A DNA stretch of 64,000 nt from Muribaculaceae bacterium Isolate-110 (HZI) (lineage in GTDB: Bacteria > Bacteroidota > Bacteroidia > Bacteroidales > Muribaculaceae). This document shows positions 20,097 to 62,091 of this stretch, one piece after another. Both the position numbers and the translations under genes were made by a program. The notes under the pieces are model-generated. The model made no database searches, was not told the DNA's origin, and saw only the letters and a list, made by a program, of their open reading frames with translations. The stretch covers positions 1 to 64,000 of the forward strand of contig RIBL01000004.1 of assembly GCA_003762875.1 (NCBI GenBank), in the 5' to 3' direction. How positions within the stretch are numbered: the first letter of the stretch is position 1; every line of letters starts with the position of its first letter.

Positions 20097-20741
20097 ATCC
20101 GACACCTCATCATACTGCTCCTCCTGACGCTGTTCATCCTCCCCCCCGTGCATGCACAAACCACAGCGTCCATCCCCTCCGCCGAAGAAATCGAAGCCGG
20201 AGGCGGACGCAAACGCGCACTCGAAGGCTACTACTTCTTCGACGGAGACGAAGGCCCCGAGACACTAATGCTCGTCCTCGGAGAAGTCACAGTATTCCCG
20301 CCGCTAAAATTCAAAAACAAAAAAGAAGAACAGTTCTACTGGAAGACAGTCCGCGACGTACGCAAGACCCTCCCCTACGCCAAACTCATCTGCGAGACCC
20401 TCATCGAGACCTACGAATACATCGAGACCTTCCCCACCCAGAAAGAGCGCGAAGAGCATCTCAAAAAAATGGAAGGAGCCGTCTTCGAGCAATACAAACC
20501 CGTTCTCAAGAAATTCACCAAAAGCCAGGCCCAGATGCTCATCAAGCTCATCAACCGCGAGACCAACCAATCAAGCTACAACATCCTCAAAGCCTTCCTC
20601 GGCAGCTTCCGTGCCGGCTTCTGGCAGACTTTCGGCCGCTTCTTCGGTGTCAACCTCAAGACCTCCTACAACCCCGACAAAGACCGCAAAGACGCCATCA
20701 TAGAGCGCGTCGCCACTATGGTCGAGCTCGGTCAGCTCTAA
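20097..20741 (+). CDS. DUF4294 family secreted protein with unclear start codon
   Basis: The clear coding part (from 20148, 197 residues) contains EGYYFFDGDEGPETLMLVLGEVTVFPPLKFKNKKEE and a helical C-terminal half, which I recognise as DUF4294. The frame also reads upstream from 20097 as RHLIILLLLTLFILPPVHAQ, a textbook signal peptide. No ATG, GTG or TTG exists in this frame between the nadB stop (20069) and the GTG at 20148. A start at 20097 would need ATC. The feature start marks the signal peptide, not a proven start codon. It is in the same frame as nadB. Function is unknown. Confidence 0.75.
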   Translation: MRHLIILLLLTLFILPPVHAQTTASIPSAEEIEAGGGRKRALEGYYFFDGDEGPETLMLVLGEVTVFPPLKFKNKKEEQFYWKTVRDVRKTLPYAKLICETLIETYEYIETFPTQKEREEHLKKMEGAVFEQYKPVLKKFTKSQAQMLIKLINRETNQSSYNILKAFLGSFRAGFWQTFGRFFGVNLKTSYNPDKDRKDAIIERVATMVELGQL

Positions 20742-20754
20742 CCCCTGTCCGCGA

Positions 20755-21075
20755 AGCTTTGTCCACGCTCCGAGCTTCAGCTCGGCCTTTGTAAAAAGTG
20801 TGAGCGCGGAAGCCCGAAAGCCCGGCCGCGAAGCCCCCTCGGCCGCAAAGCCTTTGTCCCCGCTCCCGAGCTTCAGCTCGGCCCTTGTAAAAAGTGTGAG
20901 CGCGGAAGCCCGAAAGCCCGGCCGCGAAGCCCCCTCGGCCGCAAAGCCTTTGTCCCCGCTCCCGAGCTTCAGCTCGGCCTTTGTAAAAAGTGTGAGCGCG
21001 GAAGCCCGAAAGCCCGGCCGCGAAGCTTTGTCCCCGCTCCCGAGCTTCAGCTCGGCCCTTGAAAAAGAGCGCGGA
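20755..21075. repeat. Tandem REP/BIME array, four palindromes in 96-bp units
   Basis: The palindrome CCGAGCTTCAGCTCGG occurs at 20770-20785, 20866-20881, 20962-20977 and 21040-21055. Spacings are 96, 96 and 78 bases; the last unit lacks 18 bases. Each palindrome is followed by a (T)GTAAAAAGTGTGAGCGCG block and a GC-rich segment, and units are nearly identical. It fills the gap between the DUF4294 gene and the structured RNA. Other copies occur near 11.3, 23.85, 33.5 and 60.0-60.2 kb. Confidence 0.9.
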
Positions 21076-22418: not shown

Positions 22419-23780
22419 ATGAAAGAGTTCAATCCAGAATACCTCCAGCACCTGCGCAAAATCATCGAGGACCACGCCGACAGCGCAGCCCGCGAAGAGC
22501 TCAGCGACCTCCATCCCGCCGACATCGCCGAGCTCTACCGCGACCTCGACCTTGAAGAAGCAGAATATCTCTTCCGACTCCTTGACGAAGAGACTCAGGC
22601 CGACGTGCTCATGGAGCTCGACGAAGACGAGCGCGCAAAGCTACTCAGCAAGATGGACGCCGAGGACATCGCCAAGCAGATTGAACACCTCGACACCGAC
22701 GACGCCGTCGACATCATACAGGAGCTTGACGAAGACGAGCGCGACAAAATCCTCAGTCACATCGATGACGTCGAGCAGGCCGGCGACATCATCGACCTGC
22801 TCCAGTATGACGAAGACACCGCCGGCGGACTCATGGGCACCGAAATGATAGTCGTCAACGAAAACTGGAGCATGCCCGAATGCATCAAACAGATGAGAAT
22901 GCAGGCCGAAGACATGGACGAAGTCTACTATGTCTACGTTGTCGACAACGATGACCGCCTCCGAGGCACACTCCCTCTGAAGAAACTCATCACCCACCCC
23001 TCCGTCTCCAAGATCAAACACGTCATGGAAGACGATCCCGTAGCCGTAAAAGCCGACACCCCCATCGACGAAGTAGCTCTCGACTTCGAGAAATACGACC
23101 TCGTCGCCATGCCTGTAATCGACTCCATCGGACGACTCCTCGGACGCATCACCGTCGATGACGTAATGGATAAAGTACGCGACTCAAGCGAGCGAGACTA
23201 TCAGCTAGCATCAGGTCTTAGTCACGACGTAGAGAGTGATGACAAACTCTTCGCACAGACCAAAGCACGCCTCCCATGGCTACTCATAGGCATGATAGGC
23301 GGACTATGCAACTCATTCATACTCGGAAAATTTGAAGGCGGCTTCGTCGTCGACCCCGCACTCGCCCTCTTCATACCCCTCATCGGAGGCACAGGAGGTA
23401 ACGTCGGCACACAATCATCAGCCATCGTAGTCCAGGGCCTCGCCAACGGCTCTCTCGACATACGCAAATCCACCCGCCAGCTCCTCAAAGAGCTCGGTGT
23501 CGGACTCGTCAACGGCGGCATCATAGCCCTTCTCGTCTTCATCTACAACTATTTCACCATAGGCCAGGGCCACGAGGTCACCACCTTTGCCGTATCGATA
23601 TCACTCTTCTGCGTCGTAATGTTCGCCTCAGTCTTCGGCACTTTCGTACCCCTCACTCTTGAAAAACTCAAGATAGACCCCGCACTCGCCACAGGCCCCT
23701 TTATCTCCATCACCAACGACATCATCGGTATGCTCATCTACATGACCATATCCACCTGGCTCATCATAGCCTTCCACTAA
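22419..23780 (+). CDS. mgtE: Magnesium transporter MgtE
   Basis: A 453-residue Mg2+ channel. The N-terminal helical superhelix (about 1-130) is rich in Asp/Glu (LMELDEDERAKLLSKMDAEDI), as expected for a Mg2+-sensing domain. Two CBS domains (about 135-255) follow, then five membrane helices (about 285-453) with GGTGGNVGTQSSAIVVQGLANG, the family's conserved pore-region motif. It lies 86 bases after rsmA on the same strand. Confidence 0.96.
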   Translation: MKEFNPEYLQHLRKIIEDHADSAAREELSDLHPADIAELYRDLDLEEAEYLFRLLDEETQADVLMELDEDERAKLLSKMDAEDIAKQIEHLDTDDAVDIIQELDEDERDKILSHIDDVEQAGDIIDLLQYDEDTAGGLMGTEMIVVNENWSMPECIKQMRMQAEDMDEVYYVYVVDNDDRLRGTLPLKKLITHPSVSKIKHVMEDDPVAVKADTPIDEVALDFEKYDLVAMPVIDSIGRLLGRITVDDVMDKVRDSSERDYQLASGLSHDVESDDKLFAQTKARLPWLLIGMIGGLCNSFILGKFEGGFVVDPALALFIPLIGGTGGNVGTQSSAIVVQGLANGSLDIRKSTRQLLKELGVGLVNGGIIALLVFIYNYFTIGQGHEVTTFAVSISLFCVVMFASVFGTFVPLTLEKLKIDPALATGPFISITNDIIGMLIYMTISTWLIIAFH

Positions 23781-23824: not shown

Positions 23825-23897
23825 GCAGCGCGCAGCCTTTGTCCCCGCTCCCGAGCTTCAGCTCGGCCTTTTTGAAAAAGAATGAGCGCGAAAGCCC
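23825..23897. repeat. Single REP copy downstream of mgtE
   Basis: The palindrome CCGAGCTTCAGCTCGG is at 23851-23866, with the same upstream CCTTTGTCCCCGCTC and downstream GAGCGCG(A)AAGCCC flanks as in the 20.8-21.1 kb array. It sits between converging genes. Confidence 0.85.
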
Positions 23898-58403: not shown

Positions 58404-60017
58404 ATGCTGATAAAGACTTATGGAGCCGCGGTGCAAGGCATTGACGCGCTGATAGTGACTATAGAAGTCGCCGCCGAGAAAGGAGTATCGTTTGCACTCG
58501 TGGGCATGGCTGACACAGCCGTGAGGGAGAGCCACGAACGAGTGGTGTCGGCCCTGACTCAGAGCGGATATTCGTGGCCGCGACGCCGCACGGTGGTCAA
58601 TCTCTCGCCGGCCGATGTGCGCAAGGAGGGAGCGGCCTATGACCTGCCTATCGCGCTCGGTATTCTTGCTGCATCCGAACAGATAAAGTGTATACACCCG
58701 CTTGAGTCATACATGATTATGGGTGAGCTGTCGCTCGACGGGTCGGTGCTGCCCATACGCGGCGTGCTGCCTATGGCTATCAAGGCTCGCGAGATGGGAT
58801 TCAAGGGGATGATAGTGCCGCGGGCCAACGTGTCGGAAGGTGCCGTGGTCAATAATCTTGACGTATATGGCGTGGGGTCGCTGGGAGAAGTCGTGGAGTT
58901 TTTTACCGGCAAACGAGAGCTTGAGCCGACAGTGATAAACACACGCGCGGAATTTGCCTCGGCCGCCACACATTTTGACTGCGATTTCTCGGAAGTCAAG
59001 GGTCAGGAGAGCGTGAAGCGAGCCTTTGAAGTGGCGTGTGCGGGCGGTCACAATCTGCTGATGGTCGGTCCGCCGGGAGCAGGCAAGTCGATGATGGCCA
59101 AACGTCTGCCCACCATACTGCCTCCGCTCACACTGTCGGAAGCCCTCGAGACCACCAAGATACACTCTGTGGCCGGACGTCTGAAAAGCGGCGCGCGCCT
59201 CATGACCGCCCGCCCCTATCGCGCGCCCCACCACACCATCAGCCCGGTGGCTCTTGTGGGCGGCGGCTCCAATCCGATGCCGGGAGAAATCTCGCTCGCA
59301 CATAACGGCGTGCTGTTCATGGACGAGTTTCCCGAGTTTTCGCGCCAAGTGCTGGAGGTGATGCGCCAGCCGCTCGAAGACCGCCACATCACGGTGGCAA
59401 GAGCAAAATACAGCATCGACTATCCGGCCGGATTCATGCTTGTGGCGAGCATGAACCCGTGTCCGTGTGGCTATTACAACCATCCCGGCAAGGAGTGCAC
59501 CTGTTCGCCGGGAGCCGTGCAGAAGTATCTCAACCGCATATCCGGGCCGCTGCTTGACCGTATAGACCTGCAGGTGGAGATACAGCCGGTGAGTTTTGAC
59601 AGCCTCGTGTCGAAGGCTCCGGCCGAGGGGAGCGAGGCCATACGCCAACGGGTGATGAAAGCACGGCGCATACAGGCGCGGCGATTCGCACAGGAGCGAC
59701 ACATACACTGCAACGCACAGATGAACCACCGACTGCTCACACTCCACGCTTCGCCCGACCGCGAGGGGATGCAACTGCTGCGCGACACCATGACACGACT
59801 CGACATGAGCGCGCGTGCCTATGACCGCATACTGAAAGTGGCGCGCACCATCGCCGACCTCGACTATGCCTCACGCCCCGGCTTTGACGAGACCGACGAG
59901 GCCACCCTCACCACCGCAGCCGGAGCCCCGGTGCTCAGCGACCACATCTACGAGGCCCTCGCCTACCGCAACCTCGACCGCGCCTCATGGGGCAAAAGCT
60001 TCGCGCAGGAGATTTAA
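58404..60017 (+). CDS. comM: YifB/ComM family AAA+ ATPase (Mg-chelatase-like)
   Basis: A 537-residue protein with an N-terminal ChlI/Lon-like domain (GAAVQGIDALIVTIEVAAEKG, FALVGMADTAVRESHERV). The AAA+ core has Walker A GPPGAGKSMMAKRLPTILPP, Walker B LFMDEFPEF, and the zinc-like MNPCPCGYYNHPGKECTCS. In transformable bacteria ComM is a branch-migration helicase that helps integrate donor DNA. Its role here is unknown. It is followed by the RAYT region. Confidence 0.93.
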   Translation: MLIKTYGAAVQGIDALIVTIEVAAEKGVSFALVGMADTAVRESHERVVSALTQSGYSWPRRRTVVNLSPADVRKEGAAYDLPIALGILAASEQIKCIHPLESYMIMGELSLDGSVLPIRGVLPMAIKAREMGFKGMIVPRANVSEGAVVNNLDVYGVGSLGEVVEFFTGKRELEPTVINTRAEFASAATHFDCDFSEVKGQESVKRAFEVACAGGHNLLMVGPPGAGKSMMAKRLPTILPPLTLSEALETTKIHSVAGRLKSGARLMTARPYRAPHHTISPVALVGGGSNPMPGEISLAHNGVLFMDEFPEFSRQVLEVMRQPLEDRHITVARAKYSIDYPAGFMLVASMNPCPCGYYNHPGKECTCSPGAVQKYLNRISGPLLDRIDLQVEIQPVSFDSLVSKAPAEGSEAIRQRVMKARRIQARRFAQERHIHCNAQMNHRLLTLHASPDREGMQLLRDTMTRLDMSARAYDRILKVARTIADLDYASRPGFDETDEATLTTAAGAPVLSDHIYEALAYRNLDRASWGKSFAQEI

Positions 60018-60033
60018 GCCGCCTGCTTAAGAC

Positions 60034-60047
60034 GGAGCTGAAGCTCC
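60034..60047 (-). repeat. REP palindrome, inverted orientation, before the RAYT gene
   Basis: GGAGCTGAAGCTCC has the core GAGCTGAAGCTC, the reverse complement of GAGCTTCAGCTC in the 20.8 kb array. Together with the copy at 60146 it forms a head-to-head REP pair. Confidence 0.75.
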
Positions 60048-60145
60048 TGCGCTGAAACAAAGCCTGCGGGAAATGAGATGATGCTCGGAAGCCGAGGCGT
60101 TACTGCAAGAGGAGACAGAGGCTTTCTTCCTTTTTGTTTTAGCAT

Positions 60146-60159
60146 CGAGCTTCAGCTCG
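60146..60159 (+). repeat. REP palindrome, direct orientation, before the RAYT gene
   Basis: CGAGCTTCAGCTCG matches the array palindrome core and lies 55 bases before the RAYT start. Between the two copies is another small hairpin (CTCGGAAGCCGAG, about 60092-60104). Confidence 0.75.
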
Positions 60160-60213
60160 TATCCATTATTTTTCAATCCATGACTCCCTAACCTGTCTCA
60201 ACTATTCCTTACC

Positions 60214-61128
60214 ATGAGCAAGCAGCAGATACAACGCGCGGCATGGCATGACTACCGCTCGCGATGCATTTATATGATTACTATCACCAAGCGTTGGGAC
60301 CAGCCCCCTTTCAGCTCGCTTGTCGGCGATTACAGACTTCCGACAGGCTCGCCGGGATGCTCGTCAACGGCCATGACTCCTCTTGGCACGATAATACAAC
60401 AGGCCATAAGACATCTACCCTGTCATGAACCGGCTATAAAGCTGCTCCAATATTCAGTGATGCCCGACCATGCGCACATACTGCTGTTTGTCACTCGCCC
60501 AACCGCCGAGCCGATAGGGGCGGCTATAGCCCGAATGAAGGCGGAAATAAACCGGTCGTGGGGCTATGGCAGCGTCTTCAACCCCGGATTCAATGACCAG
60601 ATACTCAAATCATCGCGCTCTCTACAGACTCTTTATGACTATATTCGCGACAATCCACGACGACTGGCAGTAAGACAGGCTATGCCCGACTTCTTCAGGC
60701 GGGTCAGGAATATTACAATCAACGGGAGGAGGTGTCAGAGCTATGGCAATCAGTTTTTGCTGAGGTGTCCGTTTAAGGAGCAGGTAGTGGTGCACAGGGC
60801 CGATGATGAGGCCACAAGAAGGGTCTTGAGGGAGAGGTGGCTCTATGCGGCGGCTAACGGCGGGGTGCTCGTGTCGCCGTTTATCTCGCCGGCCGAGAAG
60901 GCTGTACGCGCCGAGGCGGAGGAGGCCGGCGGACGCGTGATACTTATCAGCAACAACCCGTTTGCCGAACGTTACAAACCTAATGTCCGCGATTTTGACC
61001 TCTGTTGCCGTGGGCGGCTGCTGATCGTGACTCCGGCAGGCGGGGAATGGGCCGGCGAGAAGGTGTCGCGCGAGGTGTGCATGGCCATGAACGCGCTGGC
61101 GGCCGACATCTATGCCGCCGGAGCGTGA
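60214..61128 (+). CDS. REP-associated tyrosine transposase (RAYT) with extra C-terminal domain
   Basis: RAYTs are domesticated relatives of IS200/IS605 Y1 transposases that cut and join REP palindromes. In this 304-residue protein the HUH motif is His86-Ala-His88 in MPDHAHILLF. The stretch NPGFNDQIL...LYDYIRDNPRRLA (123-152) matches the RAYT pattern PGFHDHxLR...YIxxNPxRA, so Tyr143 is the likely catalytic residue. The C-terminal portion (about 175-304; GGVLVSPFISPAEKAVRAEA, GGRVILISNNPF, GRLLIVTP) is not part of the Y1 fold and resembles a DprA/LOG-like Rossmann domain. That assignment is tentative. REP copies lie directly upstream. Confidence 0.82.
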   Translation: MSKQQIQRAAWHDYRSRCIYMITITKRWDQPPFSSLVGDYRLPTGSPGCSSTAMTPLGTIIQQAIRHLPCHEPAIKLLQYSVMPDHAHILLFVTRPTAEPIGAAIARMKAEINRSWGYGSVFNPGFNDQILKSSRSLQTLYDYIRDNPRRLAVRQAMPDFFRRVRNITINGRRCQSYGNQFLLRCPFKEQVVVHRADDEATRRVLRERWLYAAANGGVLVSPFISPAEKAVRAEAEEAGGRVILISNNPFAERYKPNVRDFDLCCRGRLLIVTPAGGEWAGEKVSREVCMAMNALAADIYAAGA

Positions 61129-61158: not shown

Positions 61159-62091
61159 ATGGCAAGGAATTTACTGGGCCGCTATGTGTGGCTCATCGAC
61201 ACTATAAGACGCTTCGGATCAATCAGGCGCGATAAGCTCAACGAGCTGTGGGCCCGCTCACCCTACTCGGACGGGGAACCGCTGCCCCGACGCACGTTTT
61301 ACAACTATCGTGCGGCTATCGAGGAGCTGTTTGCTATCACTATCGAGTGTGACCCGGCTACGTATGAATACAGCATCGCCTCGGGCAACGACCGCCAGGA
61401 GGGTGTGACCGACTGGCTGCTCAACTCGGCAGCCATGAGCAATGTGCTCTCGACAGTATCGGACGTGTCGGACCGCATATTTCTCGAAGATGTGCCCTCG
61501 GCCCGCACTTATCTGTCGCAGGTGGTGTCGGCTCTTAGAGAGCACCGCACGGTGTTGTTCACCTATCGGCCTTACACACGCTCTACTCCTACGCACGGGG
61601 TGGCTGTCGAGCCTTATTTTCTGAAGATTTTCCGCCAGCGGTGGTATCTGACCGGGCGCAATGCGGGCGACGGCAAGGTGAAGACCTACGCGCTCGACAG
61701 AATGGAGGATGTGACGGTGAGCGACGGGACATTTGAACCCGACCCGACGTTTGACGCCGAGAGTTATGTGCGCGACACTTTCGGCATAGTTTTTTCGCAG
61801 GGCGAGCCCAAGGAAGTAGCCCTGCGCACCGACCCGCGCCAGGCTAAGTATTTCCGCGCGCTGCCGTTGCACCACTCGCAGAGAGAGGCGGTGCATGATT
61901 CTTACTCAATATTTTATTACCGTCTGCGCCTCACGCCCGACTTTGTGCAGGAGATACTTTCGCTTGGACCGAAAGTGACTGTCATCTCGCCTCCCGAGCT
62001 GCGGGCCATGGTGAAGACGTCGCTGCGCGAAACGCTCGCGCTCTATGAGGACACGCCTCAGGGCCAGGGTATGTCGGGGACACCCGAGTAG
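61159..62091 (+). CDS. WYL domain transcription regulator
   Basis: The 310-residue protein has an N-terminal winged-helix region (LIDTIRRFGSIRRDKLNELW, RRTFYNYRAAIEELF). A WYL domain follows (about 125-195; VLFTYRPYTRSTPTHGVAVEPYFLKIFRQRWYLTGRN), then a WCX C-terminal extension. WYL regulators often sense nucleic acid or nucleotide ligands and control defence or DNA-damage genes. The -7 box TATCTTTG (61146-61153) is five bases from the ATG. The 3' end overlaps the adenosyltransferase gene by 34 bases on the opposite strand. Confidence 0.92.
   Translation: MARNLLGRYVWLIDTIRRFGSIRRDKLNELWARSPYSDGEPLPRRTFYNYRAAIEELFAITIECDPATYEYSIASGNDRQEGVTDWLLNSAAMSNVLSTVSDVSDRIFLEDVPSARTYLSQVVSALREHRTVLFTYRPYTRSTPTHGVAVEPYFLKIFRQRWYLTGRNAGDGKVKTYALDRMEDVTVSDGTFEPDPTFDAESYVRDTFGIVFSQGEPKEVALRTDPRQAKYFRALPLHHSQREAVHDSYSIFYYRLRLTPDFVQEILSLGPKVTVISPPELRAMVKTSLRETLALYEDTPQGQGMSGTPE

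Follow-up and report, generated by a model that had tools for sequence, protein, structure and literature searches.

The window analysed here is a stretch of 64,000 nucleotides from Muribaculaceae bacterium Isolate-110 (HZI). Near its end, an open reading frame on the plus strand (60214–61128) encodes a 304-aa protein in which translation, conserved residues, profiles and structure models predict two parts: an N-terminal Y1 (HUH) RAYT-like domain (approximately residues 1–163; 60214–60702) and a C-terminal DprA-like Rossmann domain (approximately residues 164–304; 60703–61125). The HUH motif codons H86-A87-H88 occupy 60469–60477 and the codon of the presumed nucleophile Y143 occupies 60640–60642. 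The Y1/HUH protein described in the initial annotation, with HAH at 86–88 and YIRDNPRR at 143–150, is confirmed. The gene adjoining it upstream on the same strand (58404–60017) is one that we take to be comM, a name given by eye and in the initial annotation; it is a recurrent upstream neighbour of the fusion-gene family. Downstream, the plus-strand frame at 61159–62091 is presumably a WYL-type regulator, a name assigned by eye. A genome search found the fusion gene in single copy, and an ordinary dprA is encoded elsewhere in the same genome.

The N-terminal half is matched by NCBIfam REP_Tyr_transpos (NF047646) at 29.5 bits (E 5.6e-7), under the 80-bit cut-off of that family, and all 30 aligned relatives match the same model at E ≤ 0.01; Pfam Y1_Tnp gives 15.8 bits and does not reach its cut-off of 23. 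The protein carries DHAH at 85–88 and Y143-IRD-N147-P148, and H86, H88 and N147 are kept in 108 of 108 aligned rows and Y143 in 107. The sole exception at Y143 is L076, a comM-side RAYT in which His replaces the catalytic Tyr and the adjoining hairpins are kept. The tryptophan that is conserved in RAYTs before the GTAG-contact region is F122 in the window protein, and this position is F in 91, W in 15 and Y in two of the 108 rows. A Foldseek search of the PDB with a full-length AlphaFold model of moderate confidence, built on three sequences (pLDDT 64.6, pTM 0.44), matched IS200 2f4f at E 8.0e-4 and, at E 8.5e-4, the RAYT-REP complex 4er8. Judged by profiles, residues and model, the N-terminal half is a Y1/HUH domain of RAYT-like type, in line with the identity first proposed for it. 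Y-x3-N-P is the signature by which Quentin et al. 2018 (PMC6006769) characterise class 2, to which the RAYTs belong.

For the C-terminal half, the initial annotation had suggested a separate “DprA/LOG-like” domain, to be checked by structure prediction. The full-length model matched Streptococcus pneumoniae DprA (3uqz) at E 1.3e-3 with probability 1.00, and Helicobacter pylori DprA and ShosA also matched, ShosA appearing in the output of the C-terminal model as well. Residues 162–304 modelled alone (three sequences; moderate confidence, pLDDT 70.6, pTM 0.65) again gave 3uqz as the top match with probability 1.00 and a TM-score of 0.54 by query length, at E 5.4e-3, the best value for this model, with no match under E 0.001. 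A LOG-type fold was absent from the best 50 Foldseek matches of either model, where DprA was present, and we reject it. The DprA half of the suggestion is thus upheld by two models and by the stand-alone relatives described below, and the LOG half is dropped.

At the sequence level the link runs through intermediates. Pfam DprA (PF02481) has no match to the window protein. Of 345 genomes from the class, 10 are matched at E ≤ 0.001 by a profile of the C-terminal domain, the window's genome among them. Six of the nine other matches (L181–L186) are stand-alone open frames of 153–176 aa, a set that excludes two weaker matches in apparently longer stand-alone proteins (L187, L188) and one DprA (L189; 127 bits to Pfam DNA_processg_A, E 3.4e-4 to the C-terminal profile). 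These six come from other Bacteroidia families. In hhalign, the C-terminal domain aligns with the profile of the six at probability 97.6 (E 3e-12). In Pfam searches with five of them, all gave DNA_processg_A matches between E 3e-5 and 2.2e-8; one (L185) scores 34.0 bits, above the cut-off of 29.6, and the other four score 23.7–28.1. Against NCBIfam dprA the stand-alone proteins reach 15.9–25.1 bits (cut-off 191). Direct hhalign comparison of the C-terminal profile and DprA yields a weak match (P 0.0056, probability 6.5%), with P at 0.25–0.88 for four control pairs that involve the C-terminal or the stand-alone profile. A search of solved-structure sequences with the C-terminal profile returns DprA chains at E 0.053–0.057, which we do not count as proof. 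Because the direct comparison is weak, the case rests on structure together with the stand-alone intermediates.

Several DprA positions have counterparts in the aligned C-terminal half. The GTR Arg corresponds to R195, which is Arg in 91 of 108 rows, and the RNR Asn to N293, kept in 105 of 108; the GN of KGN and the SG/SP turn are matched as well. The SG.A.GID loop and the last DprA strand have no counterparts in the hhalign alignment, and we therefore call this half DprA-like and not DprA. On sequence and model comparison, the C-terminal half (about residues 164–304) is related to the DprA Rossmann fold. DprA binds single-stranded DNA and loads RecA.

Two REP elements lie upstream of the fusion gene, inverted to each other with their tags pointing inward. 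Copy 1 (60029–60073, minus strand; 48.3 bits to a covariance model of the element) has its TTTGT tag at 60057–60061 and its hairpin, GGAGCT-GA-AGCTCC, at 60034–60047. Copy 2 (60122–60164, plus strand; 35.7 bits) has the tag at 60133–60137 and the hairpin, CGAGCT-TC-AGCTCG, at 60146–60159. The pair of inverted palindromes reported earlier is therefore real, but the hairpin quoted for it, CCGAGCTTCAGCTCGG, is the form of the dispersed copies (e.g. 23851–23866), and the gene-side copies differ from it in the outer pairs. Dispersed copies in the window, all on the plus strand, are found at 20747–20789, just behind an ORF ending at 20741, at 20841–20885, 20937–20981 and 21016–21059, and at 23826–23870, behind an ORF ending at 23780. 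The four between 20747 and 21059 form an array with spacings of 96, 96 and 78 nt; between them, after TTTGTAAAAAGTG, lies a second hairpin-like stretch, possibly a different kind of REP.

With up to one mismatch allowed, the window contains seven copies of the 12-base core GAGCTTCAGCTC, all of them exact, where 0.40 are expected, and none of 100 shuffles reached seven. Genome-wide (3.42 Mb) there are 18 copies of the core against three of the backwards pattern. The common architecture is a 5′ TTTGT tag, then 9–11 nt, then the hairpin core; 15 of the 18 core copies have the tag, against none for the reversed control. Of the three untagged copies, L007 retains a decayed tag, and at L001 and L018 nothing of the element can be seen. 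The covariance model places the REP at a minimum of 18 genomic positions at E ≤ 4.4e-5 (16 that built the model and two new ones), a count that may be low since the search scored 150 of 1854 first-look candidates; 16 of these places lie away from the fusion gene. In 11 other genomes, matches below E 0.001 were confined to one (G482, two matches), which is the source of L051, the tree row nearest to the window protein. The GT[AG]G guide is absent from the foot of the window REP hairpin. The family of about 18 copies is small compared with the more than 100 copies that are usual for REPs as described in PMC2817692.

We then read the flanks of 93 family loci: the window gene (L019), L023, L049, L050, 29 loci from a family search and 60 chosen from its list. 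The hairpin scan rules and hairpin types were fixed after the flanks had been inspected. A tag plus hairpin lies within 200 nt upstream at 47 of the 93 loci, on both strands in 19, compared with 52 of 1052 control windows of 200 nt from the same loci and 55 of 1860 shuffled upstream regions; downstream the figure is 21 of 93. Loci of other families have an upstream element in eight of 23 cases, against 11 of 219 control windows. In the remaining 46 family loci, the scan recognised no upstream REP.

Two hairpin types are prominent, A (GCT-TC/TT-AGC) and B (GC-TT-GC). In the 300 nt upstream, A alone is present at 23 of 108 loci, B alone at 19 and neither at 66, and control windows contain A in 0 and B in three of 470. 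For the 42 typed loci, the A and B labels require two changes on the RAYT tree, whereas 300 shuffles required at least eight (mean 14.1). Hairpin type thus tracks RAYT clade, which is the pattern of cognate REP-RAYT pairs. Genes without the palindrome seen at this locus, which the initial annotation had named as a refutation, do exist (a different hairpin accompanies many relatives, and at about half the scan recognised none), yet the type follows the RAYT clade. Upstream of L053, L054, L055 and others, many hairpins have no more than three Watson-Crick pairs around the loop, and beyond these come tandem G-A mismatches (GAGCTTTAGCGA or GAGCTTCAGCGA), an arrangement that may be a structural trait of such REPs.

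A survey of Bacteroidales for the same fusion, as suggested at the outset, found fused relatives in number. At E ≤ 1e-5, 14 of 295 genomes from the order have a homologue, counting the window's own genome and one whose homologue is an unfused Y1 protein (G151, L032), as do 202 of 397 Muribaculaceae genomes, where a few of the weakest matches may lack the fusion. The full-length profile matches 226 of 395 genomes sampled from the phylum; among the matches listed, with at most a few candidates scored per genome, all except the window's own cover the Y1 part only. The lineage is thus found here in Bacteroidales and is frequent in Muribaculaceae.

In a tree of the Y1 domain, one branch with support of 99 separates 114 fused rows from 30 unfused ones, namely L032 and 29 from the phylum. 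A smaller tree gives support of 100 for 108 fused against 29 unfused rows. The RAYT tree leaves out 13 of 121 loci (second loci of the same gene and broken, very long or partial copies), and when seven of these were restored in the larger Y1 tree, six fell on the fused side and L032 with the unfused rows. Since the phylum search contributed its top-scoring unfused loci and not a complete sampling, a single fusion event is favoured, not proven.

We regard the locus as a separate-lineage REP-RAYT system, in which a Y1/HUH enzyme is fused to a DprA-like domain and accompanied by cognate REPs, and put the probability of this reading at about 0.72. It is supported by the two domains, the tagged REP family, the hairpin type that follows RAYT phylogeny, the one fused clade and the repeated occupation of the site behind comM.

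comM lies upstream and on the same strand at 29 of the 93 family loci, with 80–448 nt between the aligned ends (the count set includes L049, a named Muribaculaceae record, and L057, from G372 of the window's family, which encode the same protein and are one gene in two collections), and 64 loci have no comM within the stretch read. No other gene of ≥ 100 codons recurs in four or more of the 108 loci, save in six close orthologues of one genus and in one loose four-locus cluster. Six loci of genus g198 (L135, L137, L141, L142, L143 and L147) show a second conserved location, behind another gene common to all six. On the RAYT tree the comM-side label is widely scattered but slightly clustered (20 changes against a shuffled mean of 24.3, with nine of 500 shuffles as low).

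Divergence of the RAYT and of comM is unrelated across 26 comM loci (Mantel test; Spearman rho −0.002, permutation p 0.49), and mean RAYT identity stays flat at 0.46–0.48 across five bins of comM identity; the window locus and L062, for example, are 86% alike in comM and 51% in the RAYT. On this basis, vertical inheritance beside comM was rejected. Among 23 same-genus comM loci, four have the WYL gene 11–69 nt behind comM and no RAYT, two have a RAYT, one a RAYT remnant, one breaks off too soon, and in the other 15 neither gene lies within the sequence that was read. The remnant (L237), 23 nt behind comM, comprises truncated RAYT sequence (residues 231–299) and a piece of hairpin, a sign of decay. 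The unrelated divergence, together with the four loci in which the next gene directly follows comM, suggests repeated colonisation or replacement and not descent in place, and turnover of the site by insertion or recombination fits best.

These observations also bear on a reading that overlaps the REP-RAYT one and differs in what moves, in which the REP pair and the gene together form a mobile unit (a REPtron cassette) that targets the 3′ side of comM, as opposed to a settled host gene whose activity is limited to spreading REPs. Such a unit would account for the constant placement of comM, always upstream and co-directional where present, with hardly any other recurrent neighbour, as well as for the unrelated divergence and for congener sites with the WYL gene alone, a RAYT or a remnant. 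However, the gene is single-copy in its genome, filled and empty intergenic flanks do not align by eye and yield neither exact ends nor a target duplication, and the 15 congener loci with other sequence behind comM do not qualify as clean empty sites. The slight clustering of the comM label also counts against it, and recombination between comM flanks or very fast divergence could give the same incongruence. We consider a mobile unit a serious possibility at somewhat under even odds.

The position behind comM could instead be selected, with the Y1-DprA protein working alongside the ComM branch-migration helicase in transformation or recombination. ComM is called canonical in Gram-negatives for its branch-migration role in PMC11612176, and both the recurrent co-directional position and the DprA kinship of the C-terminal half would suit such a partnership. 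We judge it rather unlikely, given the 64 of 93 loci without comM in the stretch read and the presence of a separate dprA in the genome.

A toxin–antitoxin or phage-defence protein built on the DprA-like domain is very improbable. Two of the stand-alone relatives were checked and match the PADLOC PsyrA model (3.1e-15 and 1.8e-14), and ShosA appears in the Foldseek results, but PADLOC matched none of three fused proteins, there is no recurrent partner gene, and the REPs would stay unexplained. In related searches, nothing in PHROGs matches the window protein, and none of 42 pattern matches to viral relatives was confirmed. That the hairpins are ordinary terminators or mRNA structures lying near the gene by chance is least probable of all, for although the dispersed copies in the window sit behind ORF ends, the fixed tag distance, the inverted pairing at the gene, the upstream excess (47 of 93 loci against 52 of 1052 windows) and the co-segregation with RAYT clade all speak against it.

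The REP-RAYT reading places the system near known families and apart from each. Like the class 2 RAYT/TnpA-REP systems described in the main text of PMC6006769 (E. coli 4er8), it combines HUH and Y-x3-N-P motifs with inverted gene-side REPs, dispersed REPs and a REP type tied to lineage. It differs in the extra C-terminal DprA-like domain of about 140 aa, in a TTTGT tag 9–11 nt from the hairpin core in place of GT[AG]G at its foot, and in a mostly F position in place of the conserved W. REPs flank the gene upstream here but, at 47 of 93 family loci by scan, are not universal. Subclass 2.6 and class 3 also have no GT[AG]G guide according to the same text. Subclass 2.6 (RAYT group 5, mainly Bacteroidetes) shares the phylum and the atypical hairpins without GT[AG]G; by its description in Table 1 of that paper, it has NH[LIV]H and YIH[QN]NP motifs, a median length of 179 aa and no distal C-terminal domain. 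Subclasses 2.1 and 2.3 do have extra C-terminal domains, HTH-like in 2.1 and subclass-specific in 2.3, with YIELNP, Y[IV]HLNP or YVDLNP motifs, and the text reports no REPs for them by automatic or manual search. The window protein has a DprA-like tail, REPs and YIRDNP, and is set apart from the 2.3 tail by description.

Compared with IS200/IS605 TnpA, which the same source describes as having YxxxQ, about 150 aa, many near-identical copies and hairpins at both ends, the protein shares the Y1/HUH fold but has Y-x3-N-P and one copy in the genome. Its likeness to DprA (PF02481; 3uqz, 4ljr) spans the Rossmann core between the KGN and RNR regions, including the GN, the GTR Arg and the RNR Asn, whereas SPFISPAEK replaces the SG.A.GID loop, the last core strand and the C-terminal part are missing, and a Y1 domain is fused on. 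The closest relatives found for the C-terminal domain are the PsyrA-like L181–L186 of Bacteroidia, which are single-domain and have no Y1 gene beside them by eye. We found no paper joining DprA with RAYT or “tyrosine transposase” in a search that covered few subscription papers and does not settle priority, and the word DprA is absent from the main text of Quentin et al. (PMC6006769). The many relatives with their own matching hairpins, often beside comM, suggest an undescribed variety of hairpin-handling DNA system.

As to how such a system might act, we reason from the known families for both cleavage and strand handling. The Y1/HUH half would bind REP hairpins with their 5′ TTTGT tag when these are single-stranded, during replication or after DNA uptake, and Y143 would probably nick the strand near the tag, the inverted upstream pair and the dispersed copies serving as cognate substrates. 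The DprA-like half would most likely hold the single strand beside the cut or dimerise the enzyme, and may hand the strand to the recombination machinery (RecA), as DprA does. By the same analogy, REPs would be cut and spread by the enzyme, the DprA-like half would bind single-stranded DNA, and the module would move.

A further-reaching picture, which we think unlikely, is that of a REP-RAYT class whose nuclease brings its own DprA-like single-strand handler and so couples REP cutting to homologous recombination. Its modules would move as units and repeatedly replace one another behind comM, thereby sitting beside, and perhaps using or tuning, the host machinery for integrating foreign strands.

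What RAYTs offer their hosts and how REPs spread are open questions. That nature has fused a RAYT with a DprA-like domain suggests that its partner process is single-strand handling and recombination, which can be tested in one protein, and would bring together the fields of REP/REPIN biology and DNA uptake. The occupation of the comM flank, with RAYT and comM divergence unrelated, provides a natural record of module turnover.
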